Program-made: the position numbers and the translations under genes
NCBI RefSeq assembly: GCF_903853455.1
Contig: NZ_CAINTR010000133.1
Span: 1-64,000, forward strand
Reading direction: 5' to 3'
Length of the DNA: 64,000 nt
From: an uncultured Magnetospirillum sp.
GTDB lineage: Bacteria; Pseudomonadota; Alphaproteobacteria; Rhodospirillales; Magnetospirillaceae
Part shown: positions 8,760-56,407 of the stretch, one piece after another
How positions within the stretch are numbered: the first letter of the stretch is position 1
Layout of the letters: each line of letters opens with the position of its first letter
The notes under the pieces: model-generated
What the model was told of the DNA's origin: nothing
The model's input: the letters and a program-made list of their open reading frames with translations, nothing else
Database searches by the model: none

Positions 8760-8776
8760 ACTCGAGTGATGGGCGT

Positions 8777-11700
8777 TTGGACGAGTTGAAATCGCTGATG
8801 TATTTTCTAGCCGGGGGAGCGAAGAGGCTGTGGTCCTCCTTGTTCCCCGTTTGGCTGCCCGAGGAGCTGCGGTCGCTGCGGCGGGCGTTTGTCTCCCATC
8901 CCCGCAGCGTCGGGTCGCTGTCCGGTTTCAAGCGCTATCTCCCGGACCTGATCGCGGTCTCGCTGGTGCTGAACCTGCTCGGTTTGGCCTTGCCGCTGAC
9001 GCTGCTTCAGGTCTACGACCGCATTCTACCCAGCAATGCCACGGATACGCTGACCGCCTTGGCCATCGGCATCGTGGTGGCGGTGACGCTCGAAACCGTG
9101 CTGCGGATCTGCCGGTCGGCGGTGACCGGCTGGACCAGCGGCCGGTTCGAGCACATGGCGGCGACGCGGGCGTTCAATTCCCTGTTGCGGCAGCCGCTCG
9201 AAGTATTCGAGCGCAAGGGAACCGGCGTCCACATCGAAACCTTGAACGCGATCCACACCCTTAAGGACTTTTACGCCGGGCAGGCGTTTCTCAGCGTCTT
9301 CGACTTGCCGTTCGCCTTGATCTATCTGTTGTTGATGCTGGCATTCGGCGGCTGGCTGGTGATGGTGCCGCTGGTCCTGATGGTGATCTTTTCCATCGCC
9401 GGCCTGGTGGTCGGGCGAACGATGATGGACGCCATCCGCCGCCGCATGGCGTCGGACGACCAGCGAGTCAATTTTATCATCGAGGTTCTGTCCGGAATCC
9501 AGACCATCAAGGCGCTGGGCATGGAGGCGCAGATGATGCGCCGCCACGAGCGCTTGCTGGAGAACAGTTCGCAGGCGGAATTCAGCGTGTCGGAGCTGTC
9601 GGCCAAGGGGCAATCCCTGGCGTTGCTGTTCTCTCATCTGACCACCATCCTGGTGGTGGCTTTCGGCTGCATCCAAGTGATCGACGGCAACATGACCACC
9701 GGCGTGCTGGCGGCCTGCTCGCTGCTGGCCGGGCGTTGTATCCAGCCGATGCAGGCGGCGCTCGACCGCTGGACCCGGTTCCAGACCGCCCGGCTGGCCG
9801 AGGAGCGGCTGGCCAACATGCTGGACAGCGACACGTTCGGCGGCGCCCCCATTCTGCCGGCGCTCGACGTGATTTCCGGCGATCTCGTCCTGGAGGGGGT
9901 CAGCCTGCGCTTCGGCGACGGGCCGGCCATCATCGACGCCTTGGATTTCCACATCGGAGCCGGCGAGCTGATCGGCGTCTCGGGCGAGAATGGCGTCGGC
10001 AAGTCGTCGTTGCTGGGGCTGATGGCCGGGCTGGTGGCGCCGAGCTCGGGCCATGTGATGGTGGATAACTGCAATCTTGCCGGGTTCGATCCGGTCTCGG
10101 TGCGGGCGACCATCGCCTATATCCCACAGCGGCCGGAGATGTTTCTCGGCACCATCATCGAGAACATGACCCTGTTCGATGTGTCGCGCAGCGCCAAAGC
10201 CAAGCAGCTTGCCCGCGACCTTGGAATCGACCGCTTCGTCGCCCGCCTGCCGCTCGGCTACGAGACCATGGTGGGCGAGGGCGGGAACGACTCGTTGCCG
10301 CGCGGCATCCGTCAGTTGCTGTCCATCGTGCGGGCCTTGGCGCAAGAGCCGCGCATCGTCCTGTTCGACGAAGCCAACACGGCGGTGGATGGCGGCGGCG
10401 ACCAGGCGCTGCGGGCGGTGTTCGAGGCCCTCAAGGGCAAGGCGACGATCGTGCTGATGACGTCGCGGCCGTCGATGTTGAGTCTTGCCGACCGAACCTA
10501 CAAGCTGCTCCAAGGCCGTCTGGTGGATTCGAAGACCGCTGCCGCCGAAGCCGCCGCGCGGCCTGCCGGCGAGCCGGTTCCGCTGGCTCAGGTGGCGGCG
10601 TTGCAATCGGTTCAGGGGTCCCCCTTGTTGTCCTCGGCCTCCCTGGAGGACCGGCTGGCGCAAAAGGGCGCCGTGGCCATGGGCTTCATCGCCGAGGTGG
10701 AAAAGGCGTCGCCATTCGGCCGCTGCCTGATGCCGTTGTTGACGTCCATGCGCTGGACAGGCGACCTGCGTCACCTTGCCGAGGCGCTGCCCCATTTCAA
10801 CAACAGCCTGGACAATGTGGCCTTCCGCAATGTCATGGGGCATCTGGGCTATGGCAACGAGGCGGTGGAGCTGGAAGGCGACACCCTCGATCCCCGTGTG
10901 CTGCCCTGTCTGTTCGTCGATTACAACGGCAGCCCGATGGTGCTGACGTCCATGCAGGGCACCCGGGTGGTCGGTCTCGACCTGTCCAGTGGCGAGGACA
11001 AGGTGCTGCCGGCGTCCAATCTCTACGGCACCGTCTACTTCTTCACGCCGCTGGACCATGCGCGCCAGCAGGCGGTCCAGGGCCAGTGGTTCAAGAAGGT
11101 GGTGTCACGCTTCCACGGCTTGGTCTGGGCCCTGTTGGGGCAAAGCCTGATCATCAACCTGTTGTCGCTCGGCGTGCCGCTGTTCACCATGTCGGTCTAC
11201 GACAAGGTTATTTCCACCGGCGACATCGGCATGCTGGTCGCGTTCCTCTGCGGCGTTCTGATCGTCATCGCCGGCGACGAGGTGTTGCGCGAACTGCGTT
11301 CCAAGGCCTCGGCCTATGTGGGGGCCCGGATCAGCTACATCGTCACCACGATGGTGTTCGAGCGGACGCTGCTGCTGCCCCTGGGGCTGACGGAGCGGGC
11401 CAGCATCGGCAGCCAGTTGGCGCGCTTCAAGGATCTGGAAAGCTTCCGCGATTTTTTCGGCGGCGGTATCGCCGCCATCCTGATCGATCTGCCCTTCGTG
11501 GTGGTCTATCTGATCGTTCTGGTCATGCTGGGAGGCGTGGTGGCCTTGGTGCCGGTGGTGGCGCTGGCCATTTTCGCGGTGATCGTGCTGGCGGCCATGC
11601 CGGTGGTGCGCCGCCGGGTGTCGGGATCCGGCCGCACGGTCACCCATCGCCAGGAATTCGTGGTCGAGACTCTGCTGAAGATGCGCTCCATCCGCTATGC

Positions 11701-43055: not shown

Positions 43056-44996
43056 ATGAGCAGCACTGCGACCGCCCACGTTCAAACTCAGCAATCCGAG
43101 GCTCCCGTGTCCAACGCCAGCAGCAATTCCCCCATGAAGATCGTCGTTGTCGGCCATGTGGACCACGGCAAGTCCACCTTGGTCGGGCGCATTCTCTACG
43201 AGACCGGCGCCTTGCCCGACGGCAAGGTCGAATATCTGCGTGAAGTCTGCGAAAAGCGCGGCATGCCGTTCGAATGGGCCTTCCTCATGGATGCCCTTCA
43301 GGCCGAACGCGACCAGGGCATCACCATCGACACCGCCCAGATCCGCTTCCGCACCGAGGCGCGGCCCTATGTCATCATCGACGCGCCGGGTCACAAGGAG
43401 TTCCTCAAGAACATGATCTCCGGCGCGGCCTCGGCCGAGGCCGCCGTGCTGGTGATCGACGCCGACGAAGGGGTACAGGAGCAGTCGCGCCGTCACGGCT
43501 ATCTGCTGCACCTGCTGGGCTTGCGTCAGATCGCGGTGGCGGTCAACAAGATGGATCTGGTCAATTTCGATCAGGCCCGCTTCGAGGAGGTCAAGGCCGA
43601 GATCGTCGCCTATCTCAACTCCATCGGCGTCGAACCGACCTATGTGATCCCGGTGGCGGCCCGTAGCGGCGCCAACATCAACTCCCAGGCGGACGAAACC
43701 CCCTGGTACGGCGGCCCCAGCGTGTTGCAGGCCCTGGACCGGTTCGAACCGGCCAAGGCGGCCACCGAATTGCCGCTGCGCCTGCCGGTTCAAGACGTCT
43801 ACAAGTTCGACGAGCGGCGCATCATCGCCGGGCGCATCGAATCGGGGCGCCTCAAGGTCGGCGACACCCTGGTGTTCGCGCCGTCGGGCAAGTCGGCCCG
43901 CATCGCCACCATCGAGTCCTGGGGCGGCAACCACGTTGCCGCCGTGGCGGCCGGTGCCGGCCAGTCCGTGGGCATCACCCTGGACGAGCAGATTTTCGTC
44001 GAGCGCGGGCAGGTGGCAAGCCTGATCGAATCCGCGCCGACCCTGTCGCACAGCATCAAGGCGCGCCTGTTCTGGCTGGGCCGCCAGCCGTTGAAGGTCG
44101 GCAGCCGCTACAAGCTGAAGCTGGCCACCGCCGAGCATGTGGTGGAAGTCACCGCCATCGAGCGGGTGATCGACGTGGAGGATCTGGCCAACCACCACGG
44201 CGCCGAGGTCGGCCGCAATGCGGTCGCCGAAGTGGTGTTTCGTGGCAAGGCCCCCATTTCCCACGACTCCTTCATCGCCAATCCCCGCCTGGGACGTTTC
44301 GTCCTGGTGGAGGGCTATGATATCGTCGGCGGCGGCGTCATCGCCGAGGCCGATACCGTGCGTCAGGATCATAAATCGTCCAACATCACCTTCGTCGACC
44401 ACAAGGTGAATTTCGAGAACCGCGCCTTGGGTAACGGCCATCGCGGCGGCGTGGTGTGGTTGACCGGGCTGTCGGGCTCCGGCAAGTCCACCATCGCCAT
44501 GGAAGTGGAGCGTCAGCTGTTCCTCAAGGGCTGGCAGGTCTCGGTGCTGGACGGCGACAACGTCCGTCACGGCCTGTGCTCCGATCTGGGCTTCAGCCCG
44601 GTGGACCGCGCCGAGAACATCCGCCGGATCGGCGAAGTGGCGCATCTGTTCGCCCAGGCCGGCATGCTGGTGGTGACGGCGTTCATCTCGCCCTATCGCA
44701 GCGACCGCGACCGGGTGCGGGCCATCGACCCGGAGCTGTTCCACGAGATCCATGTGGCCACCGGCCTCGACGAATGCGAACGCCGTGACCCCAAGGGGCT
44801 GTACAAGAAGGCCCGCGCCGGCCAGATCCCGGAATTCACCGGCATCTCGGCCCCCTACGAGGAACCCATCGTGCCGGAACTGGCCGTGGTGACCGATGGC
44901 AAGAGCATCGAGGAGAGCGTGGCCGAAGTGCTGCGCTATGTCGAGGCGACCTTCTCGCTGTCGGCGCGCGAGCAGGCGGTCGGCTGGGGGCTATAG
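43056..44996 (+). CDS. cysNC: Bifunctional sulfate adenylyltransferase GTPase subunit / APS kinase
   Basis: The 646-residue fusion has an N-terminal elongation-factor-like GTPase (G1 GHVDHGKST, G3 DAPGHKE, G4 NKMD) followed by beta-barrel domains. A C-terminal APS kinase begins near residue 465 (P-loop GLSGSGKST, then VSVLDGDNVRHGL and RDPKGLYKKARAG). The CysN part powers APS synthesis with CysD and the CysC part phosphorylates APS to PAPS. GAGGAG precedes the ATG at 43056; the much longer frame reaching 42321 overlaps cysD and is not coding. PAPS from this enzyme could serve the sulfotransferase at 22.6 kb. Confidence 0.96.
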   Translation: MSSTATAHVQTQQSEAPVSNASSNSPMKIVVVGHVDHGKSTLVGRILYETGALPDGKVEYLREVCEKRGMPFEWAFLMDALQAERDQGITIDTAQIRFRTEARPYVIIDAPGHKEFLKNMISGAASAEAAVLVIDADEGVQEQSRRHGYLLHLLGLRQIAVAVNKMDLVNFDQARFEEVKAEIVAYLNSIGVEPTYVIPVAARSGANINSQADETPWYGGPSVLQALDRFEPAKAATELPLRLPVQDVYKFDERRIIAGRIESGRLKVGDTLVFAPSGKSARIATIESWGGNHVAAVAAGAGQSVGITLDEQIFVERGQVASLIESAPTLSHSIKARLFWLGRQPLKVGSRYKLKLATAEHVVEVTAIERVIDVEDLANHHGAEVGRNAVAEVVFRGKAPISHDSFIANPRLGRFVLVEGYDIVGGGVIAEADTVRQDHKSSNITFVDHKVNFENRALGNGHRGGVVWLTGLSGSGKSTIAMEVERQLFLKGWQVSVLDGDNVRHGLCSDLGFSPVDRAENIRRIGEVAHLFAQAGMLVVTAFISPYRSDRDRVRAIDPELFHEIHVATGLDECERRDPKGLYKKARAGQIPEFTGISAPYEEPIVPELAVVTDGKSIEESVAEVLRYVEATFSLSAREQAVGWGL

Positions 44997-45098
44997 CCGA
45001 AGAGGCTTGACCAAAGGCAAGTTCGGTTTCACCAATCGCATGATCTACTCCTGGCCGGAAGGGGGCCGGGGGTCCCTCATGCGGATGGTAAGCAACTG

Positions 45099-45671
45099 AT
45101 GTCTGATCGCATTCTTATCCTGGTCGCGCTGTCCGTGATCCTGGCCATGGTGGTGGGCACCAGCCTGCAATTGCGCAAGCCGCAATTCGCGCCGCCGCTC
45201 AACATCGAATCCATGGTCAAGGCCAGTCCGCCGCGTCCGCTGGAAGCGGTCGCGTCGGTGGACGCCGACGGCATCGCCGTGCCGTTCAACAGCCGCATCA
45301 AGCGTCCGACCCTGATCAGCTTCTGGGCCACCTGGTGCGTGCCCTGCCTGCGTGAGTTGCCCACCGTCGGGCAATTCAGGACCATGGCCGCCGCCGCCGG
45401 CATCGATGTGCTGACCGTCTCCGAGGACAAGGAAGGCGCCGGCCCGCCGGTGCATCTGCTGGCCGAGAAGGGGCTCGGCGACCTGCCGCTGGTGGTCGAT
45501 GCCGACGGCGCCCTGGCCAAGGCGCTGGGGGTGCGGGGCATGCCCACCACTTTGATCATCAATGCCAAGGGCGAGGAAATCGCCCGCATGGAAGGCGAAG
45601 CCGATTGGGGCCAAAGGTCGTCGCTGGATGCGGTGATCGGCCTGTTGGACATCGGCGTGCCGACCCGGTAA
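45099..45671 (+). CDS. Membrane-anchored TlpA/ResA-like thiol-disulfide protein
   Basis: The 190-residue protein has an N-terminal membrane anchor (ILILVALSVILAMVVGTSL) and a periplasmic thioredoxin fold with the redox pair Cys80/Cys83 (WATWCVPC) and the cis-Pro in GMPTTLIIN. TlpA-type proteins keep Cys residues of CuA sites or cytochrome c precursors reduced. It lies 20 nt before ctaA at the start of the heme-copper cluster, so it probably prepares the CuA subunits encoded downstream. Confidence 0.88.
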   Translation: MSDRILILVALSVILAMVVGTSLQLRKPQFAPPLNIESMVKASPPRPLEAVASVDADGIAVPFNSRIKRPTLISFWATWCVPCLRELPTVGQFRTMAAAAGIDVLTVSEDKEGAGPPVHLLAEKGLGDLPLVVDADGALAKALGVRGMPTTLIINAKGEEIARMEGEADWGQRSSLDAVIGLLDIGVPTR

Positions 45672-45691
45672 CCAGGGGAGTGAAGACGTCC

Positions 45692-46717
45692 ATGGGATCG
45701 GCTCATCGCGATGTGGCCGTCTGGCTGCTGGTCTGCTGCGTCATGGTGGCGGTGATGGTGGCGTTGGGCGGTTTGACCCGGCTCACCCATTCCGGCCTGT
45801 CCATGGTGGAGTGGGAGCCCATCGTCGGCATTATCCCGCCGTTGTCGGACTCCGATTGGCTGGGCTTGTTCGCCAAGTACCGCCTCAGCCCCGAATACAT
45901 CAAGATCAACGCCGGCATGAGCCTTGCCGAATTCAAGGGCATCTTCTGGCTGGAATACATTCATCGGGTGTGGGGACGGGCCATCGGTCTGGTGTTCCTG
46001 CTGCCCTTCCTGTGGCTGGCGGGTTCGGGCCGGATCGGCAAGGGATTGATCCCGCGTCTGATCGGCCTGTTCGCCCTGGGAGCGGCCCAGGGCGGCATGG
46101 GTTGGTTCATGGTCAAGAGCGGTCTGGTGGACAATCCGGCGGTCAGCCATGTTCGCCTCACCGTCCATCTCGCCCTGGCGCTGCTCATCCATGCCTGGAT
46201 GTTCTGGATGGCGCTCGACATCCTGGCCGATCACCGGGAGCAACCGGCCCGGCTGGAGCTGGGTCGGCAGGCCGTGTCCCGCTGGCTGGGCGTCTTGACG
46301 GCCCTGGTGGTGGTCACACTGTTGTTCGGCGGTCTGGTGGCGGGGCTGAAGGCCGGTCTCATCTACAACACCTGGCCGCTGATGGACGGCCGCCTGATTC
46401 CCACCGATCTGTTCGCGGACGGCATCCTCGATTTGTTCGAGGATATCAAGACGGTTCAGTTCACCCATCGCAGCCTGGCTGAACTGACGGTGGCGGTCGC
46501 GATCATCGGCTGGTTCCGGGGCCGGGCTCTGCTGCGGCAGGCCGTGCCGTGCTCGGTGAACGCGGTGGTGGCCATGGCGGTGCTGCAAGCGACTTTGGGA
46601 ATTGGAACCTTGATCTTTGTCGTGCCGGTCTGGCTGGCCTCGGCTCATCAGATGGGGGCGATGGTCCTGTTGACCCTGTGCCTGTGGGCGTTGCACGACC
46701 TGCGTTCGCGCGCCTGA
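45692..46717 (+). CDS. ctaA: Heme A synthase
   Basis: The 341-residue membrane protein has about eight segments and the conserved CtaA features: GGLTRLTHSGLSMVEWEPI, the first-half His in FWLEYIHRVWGR, GLVAGLKAGLIYNTWPLMDG in the second half, and the heme His residues in FTHRSLAEL and ASAHQMGAM. It oxidises heme O to heme A in the inner membrane. It lacks the Cys pair of Bacillus-type CtaA and is closer to the alphaproteobacterial type. With ctaB 3 kb downstream in the same cluster it would supply heme A or O to the oxidase-like subunits. Confidence 0.94.
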   Translation: MGSAHRDVAVWLLVCCVMVAVMVALGGLTRLTHSGLSMVEWEPIVGIIPPLSDSDWLGLFAKYRLSPEYIKINAGMSLAEFKGIFWLEYIHRVWGRAIGLVFLLPFLWLAGSGRIGKGLIPRLIGLFALGAAQGGMGWFMVKSGLVDNPAVSHVRLTVHLALALLIHAWMFWMALDILADHREQPARLELGRQAVSRWLGVLTALVVVTLLFGGLVAGLKAGLIYNTWPLMDGRLIPTDLFADGILDLFEDIKTVQFTHRSLAELTVAVAIIGWFRGRALLRQAVPCSVNAVVAMAVLQATLGIGTLIFVVPVWLASAHQMGAMVLLTLCLWALHDLRSRA

Positions 46718-46743
46718 TTTCCCAAAATCCTCATTCCATGAAA

Positions 46744-46766
46744 CTGCGGAAATCGTTTCGCCGCAG
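46744..46766 (+). promoter_or_regulatory. Hairpin in the gap after ctaA
   Basis: CTGCGG at 46744-46749 pairs with CCGCAG at 46761-46766. It lies in the 150-bp gap between ctaA and the first structural gene, the largest gap in the cluster, where a second promoter is also likely. No T-run follows, so termination is uncertain. Confidence 0.35.
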
Positions 46767-46867
46767 CGGCGGGACTTTACCAAAGTCACAGAGATGAACT
46801 TTCGGTAATGCGACGGTCAACGTCCGGTCGTCCGGAGTTTTTCGGAAATGCCAAGGGAGTTCGATCG

Positions 46868-47029
46868 ATGTCTCATTCAATCGAAGGCAAGGAGGAGGAG
46901 AGGGTCCCGGCGATGCAGCGCATCCTGGACAACCCGTTCCTGTTGCTTTTTATCGGGGTTGTGGTTCCGACGGTTTCCTACACCATCTGGGGGATCATGG
47001 AAGTCGCCCAGCTCCCCATCGCGAAATAA
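46868..47029 (+). CDS. Small single-pass membrane protein of the heme-copper cluster
   Basis: The 53-residue product starts MSHSIEGKEEERVPAMQ and has one membrane helix (PFLLLFIGVVVPTVSYTIWGIMEVAQL). The position just before the CuA subunit and its topology resemble the tiny accessory subunits of ba3-type oxidases such as CbaD. AAGGGAG lies eight nt before the ATG at 46868. It is likely a structural or assembly subunit. Confidence 0.75.
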   Translation: MSHSIEGKEEERVPAMQRILDNPFLLLFIGVVVPTVSYTIWGIMEVAQLPIAK

Positions 47030-47044
47030 GGGGAGGAACGCGCA

Positions 47045-47590
47045 ATGTCGATTTTTCCTCCTAAAGAGAAAATCTGGTTCAACGAACCTGTCGAGAAGGC
47101 GGAAGTCCTCTGGGTGGGGATCGCTCTGGTCTGGGCGCTCATCATGTTCGCCATGATGCCGCTGTGGCACCTCAAGGGCAGCCAGAACATGTCGAACGAG
47201 GCCTATCGCATCCAGCCGGATGCCTATCAGGCCAAGGTCGACGCGTTCGTCGAGAAGTTCAAGGTGGGCGAGGAAGGCAAGGCCAAGACTCCGGTGGTGC
47301 ATCCGCCGGCGGGGTCCGACGTCTATCTCCAGGCGCGCCTGTGGGAGTGGTATCCGGTGCTGGAGCTCGAACAGGGCAAGAGCTATCGCCTCCACCTCTC
47401 GTCGTTGGATTGGCTGCATGGGTTCTCGCTGCAGCCCGCCAACATCAACCTGGAGGTCCATCCCGGTATCGATGAAGTGGTGACCATCACTCCGACCACG
47501 TCGGGTGAATTCGGCATCATCTGCAACGAATATTGCGGGATCGGCCACCACACCATGCTCGGAAAAATCCGAGTCTTGGCTGGCAAGTAA
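47045..47590 (+). CDS. CuA-type subunit II of a heme-copper oxidoreductase
   Basis: The 181-residue protein has one membrane helix (about 20-42) and a periplasmic cupredoxin domain with a complete CuA site: His125 (DWLHGFS), Cys160-x3-Cys164-x3-His168-x2-Met171 (CNEYCGIGHHTM). It therefore should accept electrons from cytochrome c or a similar donor. It has a single membrane helix, as in ba3-type (B-family) subunit II and unlike the two-helix A-family version. It lies 16 nt before the subunit I gene. Confidence 0.93.
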   Translation: MSIFPPKEKIWFNEPVEKAEVLWVGIALVWALIMFAMMPLWHLKGSQNMSNEAYRIQPDAYQAKVDAFVEKFKVGEEGKAKTPVVHPPAGSDVYLQARLWEWYPVLELEQGKSYRLHLSSLDWLHGFSLQPANINLEVHPGIDEVVTITPTTSGEFGIICNEYCGIGHHTMLGKIRVLAGK

Positions 47591-47606
47591 TCGAGGGGGA
47601 GCGCAA

Positions 47607-49292
47607 ATGGTTGCCAAGCCCGTATTTCGAACCTGCGGCGTTACGGGTCTGAAGATCCATGACAAAGCGGAATTGCTGATCAAGTTCAATGCGGTCACCG
47701 CCGTCGTGGTGCTGGCCGTAGGTGGCTTCTTCGGCCTTCTCGTCGCCTTGACCCGTTGGCCGTCGGTGCATCTGCTGCCGGCCGACATGTTCTACCTGGC
47801 GCTGACCGCGCACGGTATCGACATCCTGATCGTCTGGTGCATCTTCTTCGAAGTGGCCCTGATGTACTTCGCCTCAGCCGTTCTTTTGGGAAGCCGATTG
47901 GCCACCCCCAAGATGGGCTGGGTGGCGTATGGGCTGATGGTCCTGGGGGCCGCCATCACCAACTGGAAGGTGCTCGAGGGCAATTCCAGCGTGATGATGA
48001 CCTCCTACGTGCCGATGCAGGCCGACCCGCTGTTCTACGTGGGGCTGATCCTGTTCGCCGTGGGTGCCCTGATCGCCTGCTTCATCTTCCTCGGAACCCT
48101 GGTCGTCGCCAAGGCCGAGAAGTGCTACGAAGGGTCGATCCCGCTGGTCACCTTCGGCGCGCTGGTGGCGTGCATCATCGCCGTCTACACCATCGCGTCC
48201 GGCGCTATCATCCTGATTCCGACCTTCCTGTGGTCGGTCGGGCTGATCAGCCACATCGATCCCTTGATGTACAAGGTGGTGTGGTGGGGCATGGGTCACT
48301 CGTCGCAGCAGATCAACGTGGCCGCCCACATTGCCGTGTGGTACGCCATCGCCGCGATCGTGTTCGGCGCCAAGCCGCTGTCGGAAAAGGTCAGCCGCAT
48401 GGCTTACCTGACCTACATCTTCTTCCTGCAGATCGCCTCGGCTCATCACCTTCTGGTCGAGCCGGGTCTGTCTTCGAGCTACAAGATCTTCAACACCTCC
48501 TACGGCATGTATCTCGCCGTGTTGGGTTCGATGATCCACGGCTTGACCGTTCCGGGCTGCATCGAGGCGGCTCAGCGCAAGAAGGGCTTCAACAAGGGCC
48601 TGTTCGAGTGGCTGCGCAAGGCTCCGTGGGGCAATCCGGCGTTTTCGGGCATGTTCCTGTCCCTGATCCTGTTCGGCTTCCTCGGCGGCATCTCCGGTGT
48701 CACCATGGGTGTGGAACAGATCAACATCATGATCCACAACACCATCTACGTGCCCGGCCACTTCCACGGAACCGTGGCGGTCGGCACGACCTTGGCCTTC
48801 ATGGCACTCTGCTTCTTCCTGGTCCCGGTCCTGTTCCGTCGTGAACTGTTCCTGCCGGGCCTCGCCAAGTTGCAGCCGTACCTGTTCGGCCTCGGCATGG
48901 GGGTGTTCTCCCTGTTCATGATGGGGGCCGGCACCCTGGGTGTGTCCCGTCGTCACTGGGACATGGCCTTCTCCGACGCTCCGCATGCCTTCAGCTATCC
49001 CCCGGCCGCCTATCTGATGATGGGCATCGTGGGGGTGTCGGCGGTGGTCGCGTTCGTCGGCGGCGCCATCTTCGTGGTGGTCATGGTCGGCACCATTCTG
49101 TTCGGCAAGCCGATGGTCACCCAGCCCGCCGCCGCCGCTCCGTCCTCGCCGCCGCCGGTGGCGTCGTACGGCAGTGCCGACACCTTTTCGGTGCCCGGTA
49201 CGTTTACCCTGGCGATGTTGTTCTTGACGATGTTCGTCTTGTACTACTTCGTCAACTGGAAGTACCTCGCCAGCACGTGGCTGTTGAGTTAG
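47607..49292 (+). CDS. Heme-copper oxidoreductase subunit I lacking the active-site Tyr
   Basis: The 561-residue protein has about twelve to fourteen membrane helices and all six canonical metal His ligands: low-spin heme His69 (TAHG) and His387, high-spin heme His385 (GHFH), and the copper/iron-B site His231, His280 and His281 (SAHH). The Tyr that is cross-linked four residues after the first CuB His in A- and B-family oxygen reductases is Gln235 here (GHSSQQ), and the preceding Glu position is Ser. The C-family Tyr on helix VII is also not evident. Loss of the Tyr is a hallmark of nitric-oxide-reducing members of the superfamily (cNOR, qNOR and the predicted sNOR/eNOR-type groups), so NO reductase or another non-canonical activity is more likely than standard O2 reduction. 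This needs biochemistry. Confidence 0.88.
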   Translation: MVAKPVFRTCGVTGLKIHDKAELLIKFNAVTAVVVLAVGGFFGLLVALTRWPSVHLLPADMFYLALTAHGIDILIVWCIFFEVALMYFASAVLLGSRLATPKMGWVAYGLMVLGAAITNWKVLEGNSSVMMTSYVPMQADPLFYVGLILFAVGALIACFIFLGTLVVAKAEKCYEGSIPLVTFGALVACIIAVYTIASGAIILIPTFLWSVGLISHIDPLMYKVVWWGMGHSSQQINVAAHIAVWYAIAAIVFGAKPLSEKVSRMAYLTYIFFLQIASAHHLLVEPGLSSSYKIFNTSYGMYLAVLGSMIHGLTVPGCIEAAQRKKGFNKGLFEWLRKAPWGNPAFSGMFLSLILFGFLGGISGVTMGVEQINIMIHNTIYVPGHFHGTVAVGTTLAFMALCFFLVPVLFRRELFLPGLAKLQPYLFGLGMGVFSLFMMGAGTLGVSRRHWDMAFSDAPHAFSYPPAAYLMMGIVGVSAVVAFVGGAIFVVVMVGTILFGKPMVTQPAAAAPSSPPPVASYGSADTFSVPGTFTLAMLFLTMFVLYYFVNWKYLASTWLLS

Positions 49293-49309
49293 TCGTTTAA
49301 CTGGTAAAG

Positions 49310-49335
49310 CGGGCGGGACCCCCGGGTTCCGCCCG
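49310..49335 (+). promoter_or_regulatory. Intercistronic hairpin after subunit I
   Basis: CGGGCGG at 49310-49316 pairs with CCGCCCG at 49329-49335. It stands in the 85-bp gap between the subunit I gene and ctaB, without a T-run, and could stabilise the upstream transcript or reduce read-through. Confidence 0.4.
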
Positions 49336-49377
49336 TCACCGGATCAAGTTTCTCTGTGGGAAGGGCGGGAGTAGGTC

Positions 49378-50244
49378 ATGGTGGCGACCCTCAGGGTAGT
49401 ATCTTCGGTTTTCAAGCTCCGTATCGGAGTCTTCTGTGCCTTGGCCGCAATTGCCGGCGCCTTGGCGACCAAGGGCGAGGTCGGCGATCCGGGGCAGATC
49501 GCCGCCGTGGCCATGGCGGTGCTGGTCTCCGCCGCCGCCGCCGGGGCGTTCAACCATTATTGGGAGCGTGATCTCGACCAATTCATGGTTCGCACCCGCA
49601 ACCGTCCCTTCGTCACCGGCCAGTTCAAGCCCGGTCTGGTCTGGCCGCTGGGCCTCGCGGCCCTGCTGATGGCGTCCGTGGCCCTGGCCGCCGTCGCGAC
49701 CAATGCCCTGGCTGCCCTGTTCGTGTTCCTCGGCGCCTTCGTCTACGGCATCGTCTACACCGTCTGGCTGAAGCGTCGCACCGCCTGGAACATCGTCATC
49801 GGTGGTCTCGCCGGCAGCTTCGCCGTGCTGGCCGGAGCCGCCGCCGCCGCGCCGTCGCTCAGTCCCGAGGCGCTGGTCCTGGCGCTGGTGCTGTTCCTGT
49901 GGACGCCACCCCATTTCTGGAGTCTGGCCACCGCGCTCAAGGACGACTACGCCGCCGCCGGGGTGCCCATGCTGCCGGTGGTGATGGATGCCGACGGCAC
50001 CAATAAGATCATCCTGGCCAACACCGTGGCGCTGGTGGCGTCGTCGCTGCTGCCCGGCCTGTTCGGCGCCGGCTGGCTTTATATGTCCGCCGCCGTGCTG
50101 GGGGGCGGCTGGTTCGTCCATAAGAGCATCGCCCTGGTCCGCCATCCCGGCCGTCCGGCCGCCATGGCGAATTTTTTCGCCTCGCTGATCCAGCTGACCC
50201 TGCTCTTGACCGCCGTCATGGTTGAGCCGTTGTTGGCTCATTAG
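49378..50244 (+). CDS. ctaB: Protoheme IX farnesyltransferase (heme O synthase)
   Basis: The 288-residue membrane prenyltransferase has the conserved aspartate-rich loop (NHYWERDLDQFMVRTRNRP) and the second motif YTVWLKRRTAWNIVIGG, then WTPPHFWSLA. It adds a farnesyl group to heme B to give heme O, the substrate of CtaA. Its place inside the cluster, between subunit I and the Sco gene, indicates the enzyme here uses O- or A-type heme. Confidence 0.94.
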   Translation: MVATLRVVSSVFKLRIGVFCALAAIAGALATKGEVGDPGQIAAVAMAVLVSAAAAGAFNHYWERDLDQFMVRTRNRPFVTGQFKPGLVWPLGLAALLMASVALAAVATNALAALFVFLGAFVYGIVYTVWLKRRTAWNIVIGGLAGSFAVLAGAAAAAPSLSPEALVLALVLFLWTPPHFWSLATALKDDYAAAGVPMLPVVMDADGTNKIILANTVALVASSLLPGLFGAGWLYMSAAVLGGGWFVHKSIALVRHPGRPAAMANFFASLIQLTLLLTAVMVEPLLAH

Positions 50245-50253
50245 TTTATCGGC

Positions 50254-51054
50254 ATGTATCGTATCAGCGCCCTGATTCTGCTGGCGATTGTCCTGTGGAC
50301 CGGTTTGCCGGCCCAGGCGGCGCCGAGCGTAGCCGCCAACGCCGAGGAGGCGTTGCGGGTGTCGCGCGCCTCGGAAGGCCGTGTCCTGGGCGAGCACCAT
50401 CTTCATGATCAGAACGGCGAGCCGGTGGACCTGGCCCGCTATCGCGGCAAGCCGCTGGTGGTCAGCATGGTCTACACCGCCTGCGACCATACCTGTCCGG
50501 TGACCACCCAGACCACCGCCAAGGCGGTGGCGACGGCGCGCCGCGCCCTGGGAAGCGACAGCTTCAACGTGGTCACCATCGGCTTCGACACGGTGCGCGA
50601 CACACCGGAGGCGTTGCGGGTTTTCGCCCGCCAGCAGGGACTCCCGGTGGAGAACTGGAGCTTTCTGGCCGGTGATTCCGACGGTATGGCGAAGCTGGCG
50701 GCGGATCTGGGCTTCAGTTGGTTCGTCACCTCGCGTGGCTTCGACCATATCGCCCAGACCACGGTGATCGACGCCGGCGGCAAGATCTACCGCCAGGTCT
50801 ACGGCGAGAATTTCGAGGTGCCGCTGCTGGTGGAGCCGCTCAAGGATCTGGTGCTGGGGCGGAGCGCGGCGCTGACCTCGGTGACGGCCATCGGCAACCG
50901 CATCCGCTTGTTCTGCACCGTCTACGACCCCTCGTCCGACGCCTATCGCTTCGATTACGGCATCGTCCTCGATCTCGGCTTCGGGGCGCTGGCGCTGGCG
51001 ACCATCATCTGGCTGACCCTGAAGCTGTGGCGCGAGAGCCGCGCTCGACACTAG
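50254..51054 (+). CDS. Sco1/SenC-like copper assembly protein
   Basis: The 266-residue protein has an N-terminal signal and a thioredoxin-like Sco domain with the copper ligands Cys77-x3-Cys81 (YTACDHTC) and His165 (FDHIAQTT). The C-terminus carries an additional membrane helix (LGFGALALATIIWLTLKLW), which typical Sco proteins lack. It should load or reduce the CuA site of the subunit II proteins of the cluster. It lies 9 nt after ctaB and 13 nt before the cytochrome b fusion. Confidence 0.9.
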   Translation: MYRISALILLAIVLWTGLPAQAAPSVAANAEEALRVSRASEGRVLGEHHLHDQNGEPVDLARYRGKPLVVSMVYTACDHTCPVTTQTTAKAVATARRALGSDSFNVVTIGFDTVRDTPEALRVFARQQGLPVENWSFLAGDSDGMAKLAADLGFSWFVTSRGFDHIAQTTVIDAGGKIYRQVYGENFEVPLLVEPLKDLVLGRSAALTSVTAIGNRIRLFCTVYDPSSDAYRFDYGIVLDLGFGALALATIIWLTLKLWRESRARH

Positions 51055-51067
51055 AGGAAACCTCGCC

Positions 51068-52632
51068 TTGTCCAATCCAATCAAATCCGCGCTGCGGGCA
51101 GGCTTGTTCCGGGTCGAAAGCGGCTGGGATGCCCTGGTCGGGCGCGACGCCAATCCCATGTACCACCTGGGCGCCATGTCGTGGTTCTTCTTCTGGGTGG
51201 TGGGAGCCAGCGGGCTGTACCTGTTCGTGCCCTACGACACCAGCGCGGCGCGGGCGTGGACCTCCATCGAGTATATCAGCCGGGAACAGTGGTACTGGGG
51301 CGGCATGATCCGCGGCCTGCATCGCTACGGCTCGGACGCCATGGTGCTGACCATGATGCTCCATCTGGTGCGGGAGTACCTGCTGGACCGCTATCATGGC
51401 GCCCGGTGGTTCGCCTGGTTCACCGGGGTGCCGCTAATCTGGATGGTGTTCAGCTCCGGCTCACCGGCTATTGGCTGGTGTGGGACGAGTTGGCTCAGTA
51501 TCTGGCCATCGGCACCGCCGAGTGGCTGGATTTCCTCGGCATTTTCGGACAAAGCATCGCGCGGAACTTCCTCAATCCGCCGGCGCTGACTGATCGCTTC
51601 TTCACCCTGCTGATCTTCATCCACATCGCGGTGCCGTTGTTCCTGCTGTTCGCCATGTGGATCCACATCCTGCGCATCAACCGGGCCGACACCAATCCGC
51701 CGCGCCAGTTGGTGATCGGGTCCGGCATCATGCTGCTGGTGCTGTCGTTGATCCATCCGGCCCAGAGTCATCCGCCGGCCGATCTGGGCAAGGCCACCGC
51801 CGTGCTGAACCCCGACTGGTTCTACATGGCGCTGTATCCGCTGTACGACATCAAGGGCCCGGCGGTCGCCTGGGCCACCGCCATCGGCCTGACCCTGGCG
51901 CTGTCGGTGATGCCGTGGATGGCCTTTGGCCGCAAGCGGAGCGCCGCGGCGGTGGTGTCGCCGCCCAACTGCAACGGCTGCGGCAATTGCGCCTCGGACT
52001 GCCCGTTCGGCGCGGTGGTGCTGCGGCCGCGCCAGGATGGTTCGGGCCATCGCGAGATCGCGGTGATGCAGCCCGATCTGTGCACCGGCTGCGGCATCTG
52101 CGTCGCCTCCTGCAACAAGTCCAATCCCTTCCTGCGCGGCGATCCCCATCAGACCGGCATCGACCTGCCCGATTTCGCCTTCGATCTGGTGGTGAAGCGG
52201 GCCTCGGCCCGGACCCACGGCCTGGTGGGCGACAACCGCGTCTTGGTCCTGGGCTGCGATCACGGCGCGGTGCTCGATCACCTCAAGGGGCCGTCGGTGG
52301 GGGTGTTGTCGCTGCACTGCACCGGTATGGTGGCGCCGTCGCTGATCGATTATGTCCTCAACAAGGATCTGGCCGACGGCGTGCTGGTGACCGGCTGCCG
52401 TCCCGGCGAGTGCTTCCATCGCCTGGGGCCGGAATGGACCGAGTTGCGTCTGGCCGGCGAGCGGGTCCCAAAACTGCGTGGCGCCGTCCCGCGCCAGCGG
52501 GTGCGGCTGTTCTGGGCCGCCAGCACCGAGACCAGGGCGCTGGCCACCGAATTGGCCGAGTTCCGCGTGGCCTTGGCCGAGTTGCCCAAGCCGGAACGGC
52601 CCCCAACCACCCAGCGGAGGACGGCGGGATGA
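51068..52632 (+). pseudogene. Cytochrome b - ferredoxin - FlpD/MvhD-like fusion, frameshifted
   Basis: From the TTG at 51068 the frame encodes the first half of a cytochrome b with the helix-B heme His pair 14 residues apart (GLHRYGSDAMVLTMMLHL), up to VFSSG. At about 51460 the reading must move to another frame to continue with TGYWLVWDELAQY, as expected for cytochrome b, so one base (a C within TCCGGCTCACC) appears to be missing. The rest encodes the second His pair (IHIAVPLFLLFAMWIHI), two 4Fe-4S ferredoxin motifs (CNGCGNCASDCP near 51970 and CTGCGICVASC near 52081) and a FlpD/MvhD-like domain (CRPGECFH near 52396). It could be a sequencing error or a true mutation. If intact, it would pass electrons between quinol, Fe-S centres and the oxidase-like enzymes. 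The stop overlaps the next start as ATGA. Confidence 0.8.
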
Positions 52633-53129
52633 TCAAGCCGCAGCATCTGGCCGGCCAGGTTCTGGCCTATACCCTGTTCGCCGCGATGATCGCCTATTTC
52701 GCCTCGTCGCCGGTCTATGTCCACCATTCGCCGGACAACGCCCTGATCAAGCTGTCGCTGACCCATGCCGGCCAGCGGGTGGGGGAGTGTCACGAGCGCA
52801 ACCCCGAGGAAATGGCCAAGCTGCCGCCCAATATGCGGGCCAAGCAGTCGTGCGGCCGCGAACGCAACGCGGTGACGCTGGAGATGGATATCGACGGCAC
52901 GCTGGCGTTCCGTCAGATGGCCAAGCCGGCCGGCCTGTCGGGCGACGGCCGCTCGCGCTTCTACGACAGCCGCGAGATCCCCGCCGGCCGCCATGTCCTG
53001 CGGGCCCGCATGCGCGACGGCACCGCCGATGTGTTCGACCAGGATGCCGCGGTCGAGGTGGTGCTTGCGCCCCGGCAGGTATTCGTGGTCGATTTCGATG
53101 AGGAAAACGGCAAGTTCTCCTTCGAATAG
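52629..53129 (+). CDS. Membrane-anchored periplasmic protein of unknown function
   Basis: The 166-residue product has one N-terminal membrane helix (HLAGQVLAYTLFAAMIAYFAS) and a periplasmic beta-rich domain with two Cys residues, Cys54 (GECHER) and Cys75 (KQSCGRE). It has no known family I can name; a copper-binding or FixH-like accessory role is possible from context. It overlaps the cytochrome b fusion by 4 nt and precedes the second subunit I by 28 nt. Confidence 0.75.
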   Translation: MIKPQHLAGQVLAYTLFAAMIAYFASSPVYVHHSPDNALIKLSLTHAGQRVGECHERNPEEMAKLPPNMRAKQSCGRERNAVTLEMDIDGTLAFRQMAKPAGLSGDGRSRFYDSREIPAGRHVLRARMRDGTADVFDQDAAVEVVLAPRQVFVVDFDEENGKFSFE

Positions 53130-53157
53130 GTCGAATTGGGCGAGTAGGGTTACCGTC

Positions 53158-54519
53158 ATGCCTCTGAACTGGACGCCCGAGACCCTGCCGCCGGCCCGCC
53201 GGTGGGAACTGCGCGGCTGGGCCTTGCTGGCGGTCGGCTCGCTGGCGGTGGCCGGATTCCTGGCCTTGGCTCTGGGAGTGTCGCGCACCCCTCGGGTGCA
53301 GGATTGGCTGCCCTGGGGACCGCATTTCTTCTACCGCGCCCTGGTCACCCATGTGGTGCTGTCGTTCGAGGTCTGGTTCCTCGCCGCCCTGGGGGCGTTG
53401 TCGGCGCTGGCCGCGCCGCCGGGCGTGTGGGGTGACCGCCTCGGCCGTCTCGGGTTGCTGCTGGCCAGCACCGGGGTGGTTCTGCTGCTGATTCCAGCCC
53501 TGGCCGACCAGGGCGAGCCGTCGCTCAACAACTATGTGCCAGTGGTGGGGCATCCGCTGTTCTATGTGGGCCTGGGCGTCCATGCCCTGGGCGTCGCCCT
53601 GGCCAGCCTGCGGCTGTTGCCGGTGCTGGCGCGGCGGCCGAGGGTCACGGTGCCGTTCGGTATCGCCTGCGCCGGCGTGACCTATCTCGCCGCCTTGGCC
53701 TGCTTCGGCCTCGCCTGGGGGCTGATTCCGGCCGGGACCGATGCCGACCTGTTCAATGAGCGGGTGTTCTGGGGCGGCGGCCATGTGCTGCAACTGCTCA
53801 ACACCCTGATCCTGATGATCGCCTGGCAGATGCTGGCCGAGCGCGAGTTCGACCGAGGGCCGGTGCCGGCGGCGTTGGCCCATGCCGCCTTTACCGCCCT
53901 GGCGCTGTTCGCGCTGGCCTCGCCGCTGATCTATCTGGTGGGTGGCGATGTGCTGGGCTTGGCCCATCGCCAGATGTTCACCCGCCTGCTGTGGATCGGC
54001 CTGCCGTTGCCGCCGCTGGTGATGGGGGGCTGCTTGGCGCTGCAAATCCTCAAGGGGCCGCGCGATTGGCGCTCGCCCGCCTTCCTCGCCCTGGCCCTGT
54101 CGCTGCTGCTGTTCGCCATCGGCGGTTTCGCCGGCTTTTTCCTCGGCGTTGCCGACACGCGGACGCCGTCCCACTATCACGCGGTGATCGGCGGAGTTCA
54201 GTTGGGACTGATGGGGGTGGTCCTGGTGGTGGTTCTGCCGTTGCTGGGACGCGGGATCGGGCGGGGCAGGGCGGTTCGCCTGCAATTCCATCTCTATGGC
54301 TGGGGCCAGTTGATCCATGCCCTGGGCTTCTTCCTGGCGGGGGCGGCGGGAGTGCCGCGCAAGACCACCGGCCTGGACCAGGGCCTCGACACGCTGTGGA
54401 AGAAGGCCGCCATGGGGGTGGTCGGCCTGGGCACCGGTCTGGCGGTGCTGGGCGGTGTCATCTTCGTGTGGATGGCGCTGGTCCGGCTGCTGGGGCGGCG
54501 GGAGACGGGGCATGAGTAG
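53158..54519 (+). CDS. Second, divergent heme-copper subunit I-like protein
   Basis: The 453-residue protein has about twelve membrane helices and a heme-copper plan with unusual residues. Low-spin heme ligands His65 (VTHVVLSFE) and His341, and high-spin heme ligand His339 (SHYH), are kept. The B-site has His209 (GGGHVLQ) and His270, but the second helix-VII His is Arg271 (AHRQMF), and the Tyr position after His209 is Leu213, with Gln212 before it. It is also shorter than oxygen reductase subunits. This fits a NOR-like or inactive member of the superfamily. It overlaps the following CuA gene by 8 nt, so the two probably make one complex. The start ATG at 53158 has only a weak site. Confidence 0.75.
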   Translation: MPLNWTPETLPPARRWELRGWALLAVGSLAVAGFLALALGVSRTPRVQDWLPWGPHFFYRALVTHVVLSFEVWFLAALGALSALAAPPGVWGDRLGRLGLLLASTGVVLLLIPALADQGEPSLNNYVPVVGHPLFYVGLGVHALGVALASLRLLPVLARRPRVTVPFGIACAGVTYLAALACFGLAWGLIPAGTDADLFNERVFWGGGHVLQLLNTLILMIAWQMLAEREFDRGPVPAALAHAAFTALALFALASPLIYLVGGDVLGLAHRQMFTRLLWIGLPLPPLVMGGCLALQILKGPRDWRSPAFLALALSLLLFAIGGFAGFFLGVADTRTPSHYHAVIGGVQLGLMGVVLVVVLPLLGRGIGRGRAVRLQFHLYGWGQLIHALGFFLAGAAGVPRKTTGLDQGLDTLWKKAAMGVVGLGTGLAVLGGVIFVWMALVRLLGRRETGHE

Positions 54520-54982
54520 CCGCCGGAACCGCTTCGCTCCGGTCGCGCTGTTGCTGGCGACCTTGATCATGCTGGTGGGCTGGTTGTCCGAGCGTACCGG
54601 CGGCGATCCGTTGCCGGTGGACTCCTACGCCGCCGATGCCGTGGCCTTTACCGCCCGCTACGATGCCATGGTGGCGGAGCATGGCAGGGAGGATGGGGCG
54701 GTGGTGCGGCCGCCGCCGGGCGACGTCTACATGCGGGTCAAGCGGTGGGACTTTAGCCCGGCGTTGGAGTTGGAGCCGGGCCGGACCTATCGCCTGCATC
54801 TGCTGTCCGAGGATGTGGTCCACTCCGCCGCCATCGGCGAGGCGGAAGTGCTGCTGGAGCCCGGCACGGTCAAGGTGGTGACCCTGGTCGCCCCCAAGGC
54901 GGGGCGGGTCCGCATCCAGTGCGGCGAGTATTGCGGCCTCGGCCATACCAAGATGATCGGCAGCATCGAGGTGGTTCGCTAG
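54512..54982 (+). CDS. Second CuA-type subunit II
   Basis: The 156-residue protein has an N-terminal membrane anchor (PVALLLATLIMLVGWLS) and a cupredoxin domain with a complete CuA site: His104 (DVVHSAAI), Cys137-x3-Cys141-x3-His145-x2-Met148 (CGEYCGLGHTKM). Together with the upstream subunit I-like gene, which it overlaps by 8 nt, it would form the second enzyme of the cluster. It is the last gene of the cluster; the next gene encodes a glycosidase 57 nt downstream. Confidence 0.9.
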   Translation: MSSRRNRFAPVALLLATLIMLVGWLSERTGGDPLPVDSYAADAVAFTARYDAMVAEHGREDGAVVRPPPGDVYMRVKRWDFSPALELEPGRTYRLHLLSEDVVHSAAIGEAEVLLEPGTVKVVTLVAPKAGRVRIQCGEYCGLGHTKMIGSIEVVR

Positions 54983-55039
54983 CTTGACGGGCCTCCTGCC
55001 CGGTGGGAAGCTTATTTTCCCAATTGGAAGCGAGGTCCC

Positions 55040-56407
55040 ATGGTCGCCAAAAAACCCGAGCAGGTCGCCAAAGCCCTGGGCCTGCGTCCCGATTTCGTCT
55101 GGGGCGTTTCCACCTCGGCCTTCCAGGTGGAAGGCGCGGTCAAGGAGGACGGGCGCGGCCCCAGCATCTGGGACACCCGCTGCCGACTTGCCGGCGGCGT
55201 CTGGAACGGCGCCAACGCCGACATCGCCTGCGACCACTATCACCGCTGGCCGGAAGACGTGGCGCTGATGAAGCAGATTGGCGTCGGCGCCTATCGCTTC
55301 TCGTTGGCTTGGCCGCGACTGCTGCCCAAGGGACGCGGCGCGGTCAATCAGGCGGGCCTCGACTTCTACGACCGCCTGATCGACGGGGTGCTGGAAGCCG
55401 GGATCGAGCCCTGGGTCTGTCTCTACCACTGGGACCTGCCCCAGGGGCTGGACGATCTCGGCGGCTGGACCAACCGCGACTGCGCCGGCTGGTTCGCCGA
55501 CTATGCCGTGCTGGCGGCCAAGCGCTATGGCGACCGGGTCAAGAACTGGGCCACCTTCAACGAGTTCTCGGTCTTCACCATGTTCGGCTACGCCATCGAC
55601 TGGGCGGCGCCGGGGGTGACCGACCGCTCCGCCCACATGAAGGCCGTCCATCACGTCAACCTCGCCCATGGCGCCGGGGTGGACGTGCTGCGCGACCATG
55701 TGGCGGGGGCCAATATCGGCGCCATCCACAATCGTCAGATCGTGCGGCCGGAAGGCGGGCTGGAGGAGAACAAGGCAGTGGCGGAACTGCTGGACGCCCA
55801 TTGGAACCTGGTCTTCGCCGATCCCCAGCATCTGGGGCATTACCCCGCCATCGTCATGGGCGCCATGGAGCCCAACATCAAGGCCGGTGATATGGCGGCC
55901 ATCTGTCGGCCCACCGACTGGATCGGTCTCAACCACTACGGCCCTATCTACGCCAAGGTCGATCCCAGCACGACTTGGGGCTATGGCTGGGGCAGCCCGC
56001 CGGAATCGGCCAACCACCCCGAGGTGGGGTGGCCGATCTTCCCCGAAGTGTTCAAGGACGAATTGCTGGAACTGACCCGGCGCTACCGGATGCCCATCTA
56101 CGTCACCGAGAACGGCTGCGGCGGCGGCAAGGGCAGCGACACCCCCGACGAGAACGGCGAGGTCAAAGACACCCACCGCATCGCCTATTTCCGCGAATAC
56201 ACCAAGGCCATGCGCGACGCGGTGGCCGAGGGCGCCGATCTGCGCGGCTATTTCGTCTGGGCGTTGCTGGACAATTTCGAGTGGGGATCGGGCTACGGCC
56301 CTCGCTTCGGCCTGCTTCATGTGGATTTCGATACCCAGAAGCGGACGCTGAAGAACTCCGGCAAGTGGTATGGCGGACTTATTCGCGGGGAGCATACGGG
56401 CGAATAG
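55040..56407 (+). CDS. Family GH1 beta-glucosidase
   Basis: The 455-residue product is a full GH1 glycosidase: FVWGVSTSAFQVEGAVKEDGRGPSIWD at the N-terminus, the acid/base Glu175 (TFNEFS), the nucleophile Glu357 (YVTENG) and a C-terminal GYFVWALLDNFEWGSGYGPRFG signature. It has no signal peptide, so it is cytosolic and probably hydrolyses short beta-glucosides. It runs in the same direction as the heme-copper cluster but has no obvious functional link to it. Confidence 0.96.
   Translation: MVAKKPEQVAKALGLRPDFVWGVSTSAFQVEGAVKEDGRGPSIWDTRCRLAGGVWNGANADIACDHYHRWPEDVALMKQIGVGAYRFSLAWPRLLPKGRGAVNQAGLDFYDRLIDGVLEAGIEPWVCLYHWDLPQGLDDLGGWTNRDCAGWFADYAVLAAKRYGDRVKNWATFNEFSVFTMFGYAIDWAAPGVTDRSAHMKAVHHVNLAHGAGVDVLRDHVAGANIGAIHNRQIVRPEGGLEENKAVAELLDAHWNLVFADPQHLGHYPAIVMGAMEPNIKAGDMAAICRPTDWIGLNHYGPIYAKVDPSTTWGYGWGSPPESANHPEVGWPIFPEVFKDELLELTRRYRMPIYVTENGCGGGKGSDTPDENGEVKDTHRIAYFREYTKAMRDAVAEGADLRGYFVWALLDNFEWGSGYGPRFGLLHVDFDTQKRTLKNSGKWYGGLIRGEHTGE

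Follow-up and report, generated by a model that had tools for sequence, protein, structure and literature searches.

What is the function of the block of same-strand genes at positions 45099 to 54982 of contig NZ_CAINTR010000133.1, from an uncultured Magnetospirillum sp., of which we analyzed the first 64,000 nucleotides (nt; hereafter the window)? The first-pass annotation had described a complete, self-contained and mobile respiratory module around two non-canonical heme-copper enzymes (here HCO1 and HCO2), with no known counterpart. We consider it likely that the block encodes an eNOR-type nitric oxide (NO) reductase together with the parts that it needs, a redox wire built on an FlpD fusion protein, and, in HCO2, a paralogue without CuB that helps in assembly or tuning. 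What survives of the earlier description is a conserved, patchily distributed respiratory module; its being self-contained, undescribed or recently mobile was not supported, nor was a unit of HCO1 and HCO2.

The evidence starts with HCO1. This protein retains H69, H231, H280, H281, H385 and H387, all invariant, which we take, from alignment with known oxidases, to be the ligands of the low-spin heme, the high-spin heme and CuB. At the position of the catalytic tyrosine it carries Gln235, a residue shared by all of 15 aligned rows and by 9 of a further alignment. The gene directly upstream (47045-47590) encodes a subunit II, with a CuA motif in 13 of 13 relatives. HCO1 therefore combines a glutamine for the tyrosine, six histidines and an adjacent upstream cupredoxin/CuA subunit II, as expected of an eNOR, and lacks the cross-linked catalytic tyrosine expected of an oxygen reductase. 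According to the accessible sections of PMC8756737, glutamine in place of the cross-linked tyrosine and an upstream cupredoxin subunit II are the defining marks of eNOR. Because all six histidines are present and Gln235 is this published mark, we read HCO1 as an eNOR, and the cluster as most likely a module for NO-reducing denitrification. From the eNOR family as portrayed in the accessible parts of PMC8756737 and PMC11388526, the cluster differs by an added cytochrome b/Fe-S/FlpD partner, an anchored protein, HCO2 and a second CuA subunit.

Among solved structures, the best sequence matches of HCO1 are 7deg and then a ba3-type oxidase; the B-family ba3 cytochrome c oxidase of Thermus (PDB 3s8f, 1ehk) is alike in sequence, with tyrosine where HCO1 has glutamine. 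That the closest solved relatives are oxygen reductases would also suit a degenerate cytochrome c oxidase in which O2 reduction persists, if perhaps incompletely, within a micro-oxic oxidase operon. Indeed, section 8 of PMC6431628 flagged an operon of Magnetospirilli in 2019 as encoding a degenerate B-family oxidase, "ba3-a1", of unknown function. We nevertheless regard this explanation as very unlikely, given the replacement of the tyrosine by Gln235, the indirect hints of NO activity mentioned in that same section, the inclusion of eNOR among biochemically characterised enzymes in the accessible text of PMC11388526, and the cd1-type genes and FNR/Dnr-type boxes that adjoin eNOR in other lineages (see below). 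If HCO1 is an eNOR, electrons from a periplasmic carrier would pass to the CuA of subunit II, on to the low-spin heme and then to the heme/CuB site with its glutamine, where, by analogy with the eNOR family, two NO would be converted to N2O, possibly with proton pumping. CtaA, CtaB and Sco would provide heme A and copper, as their families suggest.

The family of HCO1 is thus already published (PMC8756737, PMC11388526), and the 2019 operon is probably the same as the one in the window, which removes the claim that no such system has been described. Both have Sco in the operon and have lost the catalytic tyrosine; section 8 of PMC6431628 names neither eNOR, nor the FlpD fusion, nor the CuB-less paralogue. 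Literature searches for FlpD returned PMC8756737 alone and no paper describing the pairing of eNOR with an FlpD fusion, and searches on HCO2 listed no title evidently on it, although the primary description of eNOR may mention either. According to the accessible text of PMC8756737, many eNOR genes go under the label of cytochrome c oxidase in annotations, and a capacity to reduce NO and form N2O is therefore overlooked in genomes.

The strongest association of eNOR was with the fusion of cytochrome b, two [4Fe-4S] clusters and FlpD, which in the genomes checked is its near-obligate partner. Among 239 genomes of the class besides the window's own, eNOR (at least 64% identity) occurred in 14 and the fusion (at least 43%) in the same 14 (Fisher 6e-23), while among 298 genomes of the phylum eNOR was found in 29 (two of them partial: one at a contig end in G382, one a short piece in G488), the fusion in 32 and both in 28, against five with only one of the two (Fisher 6e-34; both Fisher values ignore the shared ancestry of the genomes, and the two draws overlap partly, with no eNOR-positive genome in common besides the window's own). 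The proposed co-occurrence of the fusion with the first subunit I was thus borne out almost perfectly. A partner gene that tracks eNOR nearly one to one offers a genome marker as well as a testable idea of how eNOR is supplied with electrons.

The fusion itself matches cytochrome b6 and MvhD, and its C-terminal part matches HdrA2; what sets it apart from these MvhD/HdrA2-type FlpD proteins and cytochrome b6 is that the parts are merged into a single membrane protein, flanked in the window by Sco and the anchored protein. PMC8756737 lists a similar fusion (cytochrome b6, DMSOR-beta-like, FlpD) in one table row, as far as its accessible text goes in another context. All 27 intact fusions keep the four heme histidines and 11 of the 12 cluster cysteines, and the twelfth is present in 26. 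Together with its anchored partner, the fusion would hold ligands for a full transmembrane wire of two hemes b, two [4Fe-4S] clusters and one FlpD cluster, most likely for electron exchange of a cytoplasmic donor with the quinone pool or eNOR, in whichever direction. The anchored protein is likely the partner of the fusion, because both form one frame of 700 amino acids (aa) on a contig labelled Nitrospinota (L105); a fold search with the anchored protein gave nothing convincing (best match E 7.8e-4, TMq 0.38). Alternatively, the fusion could be a factor for the biogenesis or redox maturation of eNOR rather than an electron donor. Such an assembly factor would be expected to co-occur with eNOR even when unlinked, as is the case in several genomes in which the two are separated by more than 10 kb or sit on different contigs (e.g., G305, with both deep in long contigs), and the anchored partner has two invariant cysteines; yet the heme b and Fe-S ligands, all present and conserved, would hardly be needed in an assembly factor, and we consider this role unlikely. 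TGA codons inside the FlpD matches of G295, G382 and G366 were considered as selenocysteine and rejected, as these are ordinary gene ends that the matches overran. Two loci (L155 and L156, family f183) carry the FlpD fusion gene in tandem duplicate, and their HCO2 (34% identity) comes next after the anchored protein.

In the window, the cytochrome b/Fe-S module has the content first described, but in two frames rather than one open reading frame (ORF): the part from 51068 and the part up to 52632 are in different frames, with the switch near 51450. All 49 relative loci (eight of which, L046-L053, come from genomes already represented in L026-L038) have the halves joined in a single frame. A recent mutation is possible, and so is an assembly error, because the genome is a draft of 223 contigs. 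One could take the frame change as a sign that the cluster is decaying in this strain and that the module is non-functional, all the more since HCO2 is split over two frames in L038 (11426-12774) and eNOR subunit I in L029 (6361-7978), by assembly error or decay. However, the remaining genes are open, subunit I of eNOR is 88-95% identical to its relatives (81-90% in the two pieces of L029), the figure for HCO2 is 70-89%, and a single-base difference in a draft assembly is often an error, so that decay seems to us distinctly improbable.

For HCO2, at least 557 stretches passed the search, not each of them checked, and the best 80, all named, were examined as loci. After dropping four short sequences, 57 of the remaining 76 (thinned by hand) were aligned with that of the window. 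All 58 sequences keep H65, H209, H339 and H341, and none has a histidine at positions 258 and 259, the places of the CuB pair, where the window has I258 and Y259. H209 is thus the only one left of the three CuB histidines, and the CuB site of a catalytic heme-copper oxidoreductase is missing; some histidine within 250-266 occurs in six of the 58, and Tyr259 in 46. The column aligned with the catalytic tyrosine contains Phe in 43 sequences, Leu in four, Ile in four, Val in three and Tyr in four, leaving 54 of 58 without tyrosine. It also lacks the Asn or Asp that marks sNOR, gNOR and bNOR at this position (PMC8756737, Table A4, within the accessible text). The fold is nevertheless that of a subunit I: the model has a pLDDT of 94.1, its best fold match is the ba3 oxidase of Thermus (TMq 0.77), which has the CuB histidine pair that HCO2 is without, and hhalign gave 99.9% to eNOR. 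A sequence search of HCO2 against the PDB returned no match at E up to 1, leaving kinship by fold only, and a search of plasmids gave no match. Of the "two catalytic subunits" of the earlier description, only HCO1 has a complete heme-copper site.

The surroundings of HCO2 point to heme-A oxidases in general rather than to eNOR. DUF420, CtaB or CtaA is close in 59 of the 80 loci (DUF420 in 52, CtaB in 47) and COX3 or Cox11 genes are near in 24. By contrast, 12 loci have eNOR at a distance of up to 10 kb, and eight of these come from the window's own genus and family. In addition, none of the eNOR stretches fetched from the other 14 genomes of the class showed HCO2, and the suggested co-occurrence of the fusion with both types of subunit I was not supported for this one. 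According to the accessible part of PMC9145763, DUF420/CtaM is needed for the activity of aa3-type oxidases in Bacillota; the same part does not mention an assembly factor with the heme-copper oxidase fold next to the DUF420/CtaM and CtaB assembly genes, which often adjoin HCO2. HCO2 would not be expected to perform ordinary O2 or NO chemistry; judged by its residues and its neighbors, it is probably an accessory of heme-A oxidases, helping to assemble or tune them, eNOR included, and not a second terminal enzyme. A different possibility is that HCO2 handles NO as an enzyme, or acts as an electron sink or sensor, using CuA without CuB. Its partner subunit II does retain the CuA motif (as do all 17 best matches from relatives), H339 and H209 are invariant, Tyr259 is common, and in L155 and L156 HCO2 directly follows the anchored protein in another lineage. 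Set against the universal absence of the CuB histidine pair, the rarity of tyrosine in its column and the predominance of assembly genes over eNOR around it, this leaves an enzymatic or sensory role as a minority option, though one to be kept in mind. L041 has a single open frame (7457-9280) that covers both HCO2 and its CuA subunit II.

HCO2 may also account for a hemoprotein of Magnetospirillum that is "cytochrome a1-like" but lacks oxidase activity. More broadly, a CuB-less family of this kind bears on how oxidases are built or controlled. The combined proposition, that eNOR in Pseudomonadota depends on a dedicated, undescribed transmembrane wire complex and that HCO2 is a widespread CuB-less accessory of heme-A oxidases, we put forward only tentatively, as somewhat less probable than its negation.

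The gene order of the cluster is conserved more than chance would produce. Judged by its named relatives, the window's genome is placed near Paramagnetospirillum (Alphaproteobacteria, Pseudomonadota). Of 39 relatives, the regions of 20 were fetched; 13 of these (12 congeners and one genome from another genus of the family) keep the genes in order all the way from the small subunit to the second subunit II, and the other seven stretches contain HCO2 and no eNOR module. CtaB had no match in the cluster of four of the 13, and one stretch (L030) had no match for either TlpA or CtaA. The small subunit also occurs in many eNOR modules beyond these 13 loci. Across the 14 other genomes of the class, a core of small subunit, subunit II, eNOR, often CtaB, Sco, fusion and anchored protein is collinear where contigs allow, except that the small-subunit match lies on the opposite strand in L137 and L143. 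For the phylum, loci were fetched for 11 of the 29 eNOR-bearing genomes, and the core is whole in some and split in others. Via HCO2, we also found the core on contigs labelled Hyphomicrobiaceae (L102), bacterium without further label (L122) and Nitrospirae (L123), and parts of it on contigs labelled Nitrospinota (L105) and Deltaproteobacteria (L108), all five with HCO2 or CtaB/Sco placed differently from the window.

Independence from the main oxidase genes, another part of the earlier description, does not hold. The CtaA of the cluster is the only COX15/CtaA found in its genome, as is also the case in congeners G003, G011 and G014, and the genome also encodes a canonical aa3 subunit I as well as cbb3 and cNOR subunits I. 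Heme A is probably shared between the module and the aa3 oxidase, and the module is therefore not independent of the latter. Congeners G004, G006 and G015 are without eNOR, HCO2 and CtaA, and have one subunit-I match each, with a cbb3-like score; in congener G002 a CtaA lies some 3 kb from an aa3-like subunit I, and G003 gave no separate NorB-like match. In G002, cysHDNC is followed by a TlpA relative (58%) and, about 105 nt on, by a GH1 glycosidase. Because the site is empty between these two genes, we conclude that the block was gained or lost as a unit at this site in the genus. Because the TlpA relative persists beside cysNC in G002 without the module, TlpA is probably a neighbor, and the thiol-reduction gene would drop out of the proposed membership. 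As to mobility, past transfer fits the presence and absence at one site in the genus and the labels of contigs from other phyla, but recent mobility is not indicated, with GC contents of 0.651 in the cluster and 0.645 in the rest of the window, and the glycosidase gene kept downstream in 11 of 13 relative loci.

Outside the genus, the regulatory and genetic context of eNOR shows signs of denitrification. Of 28 modules from outside the genus, 22 (all but L102, L123, L132, L140, L161 and L162) have the motif TTGA-N6-TCAA, which we take to be an FNR/Dnr-type box, in the 300 nt before the small-subunit gene, with 0.022 expected per locus, for a motif fixed after palindromes had been seen in the same loci. 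Of 35 fetched stretches, from 31 genomes or records, 16 carry a cd1-type gene: nine matches have at least 50% identity to the queries (three of them being query loci), and seven have only 25-30% and need not be nitrite reductases. Pfam cd1 domains were found in seven loci. In 13 of the 35 stretches (L102, L122, L132, L133, L135, L136, L138, L139, L140, L142, L143, L144 and L163), two of them query loci, the gene right after that of the anchored protein is hemerythrin-like; in the window, HCO2 occupies this place. In the window's own lineage, 11 of the 13 loci L026-L038 carry an exact copy of the palindrome GACTTTACCAAAGTC, while its first base is changed in L031 and L037; the window has a single match at up to two mismatches, against 0.04 expected. 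This palindrome and a hairpin with a T-run (46773-46836) are kept among relatives while the surrounding intergenic region between CtaA and the small subunit diverges, making them a candidate operator and a candidate attenuator, respectively, by conservation. Terminator-like sites in the region numbered 11 against 6.3 expected, and a promoter scan of the region remained at chance level.

Several of these results weigh against our overall reading. Besides the neglect of ancestry and the overlap of draws in the co-occurrence counts, the choice of box motif after inspection and the weak cd1-type matches, they include the frameshift of the fusion in this very assembly. One genome, G337, has eNOR without the fusion (97% complete; its eNOR contig ends just past Sco), and the reverse, fusion but no eNOR, holds for four (G386, G402, G409 and G539), three being 69-82% complete and one 96% in 730 contigs. 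The CuA motif in the partner of HCO2 would fit electron transfer better than pure assembly, and the cNOR-type subunit I of the own genome is a NorB. Finally, the FNR-type box has no occurrence in the whole window or upstream of 21 loci of the genus and family (a stricter pattern gave one chance-level match in the window, elsewhere than upstream), and the window contains neither nirS nor hemerythrin, with cd1-family matches elsewhere in the genome. Because box, nirS and hemerythrin are missing from the window, the cluster may have been re-purposed in this lineage.

As claimed, the cluster is made up of same-strand genes with the contents first listed, as judged by the ORF list and by Pfam and profile searches of the window (Table 1). 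With start codons chosen by hand, the intergenic gaps are, in order, 20, 150, 15, 16, 85, 9, 13, -4, 28 and -8 nt, which agrees with the description of short gaps except for two, here between CtaA and the small subunit and between HCO1 and CtaB.

Table 1. Features of the respiratory cluster, with positions in the window.
Feature	Position	Strand	Basis or remark
TlpA/ResA-like thioredoxin-fold protein	45099..45671	+	Redoxin PF08534
CtaA/COX15 heme A synthase	45692..46717	+	PF02628, 345.8 bits; single match in own genome
Palindrome GACTTTACCAAAGTC, candidate operator	46773..46787	+	13-row alignment including the window
GC hairpin then T-run, attenuator/terminator-like, conserved	46823..46836	+	Alignment of relatives and terminator scan
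Small subunit, 53 aa	46868..47029	+	One hydrophobic stretch by eye; present in 13/13 relative loci
eNOR subunit II with CuA motif	47045..47590	+	CoxB match below cut-off; COX2 20.6 bits, below cut-off
eNOR subunit I (HCO1)	47607..49292	+	PF00115 (COX1); invariant residues
CtaB heme O synthase	49378..50244	+	TIGR01473, 276.4 bits, above cut-off
Sco-type copper chaperone	50254..51054	+	PF02630
Cytochrome b/2x[4Fe-4S]/FlpD fusion, N-half	51068..51458	+	PF00033; frame shifts near 51450
Cytochrome b/2x[4Fe-4S]/FlpD fusion, C-part: cytochrome b end, two 4Fe-4S clusters, FlpD	51458..52632	+	PF12838, PF02662
Anchored protein: N-terminal helix and beta-sandwich, two invariant Cys	52629..53129	+	Alignment; model pLDDT 91.7
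HCO2, subunit-I-like protein without CuB site	53158..54519	+	58-sequence alignment; model; fold match
Second CuA-type subunit II, partner of HCO2	54512..54982	+	CoxB match below cut-off; no Pfam match at 1e-5

The small subunit had no Pfam match, and an Rfam search over 44900-55100 gave nothing at the gathering threshold. Just downstream of the cluster, ARAGORN called a tRNA-Pro on the minus strand (55765-55857) inside the GH1 glycosidase gene (55040-56407), which is probably a false call.

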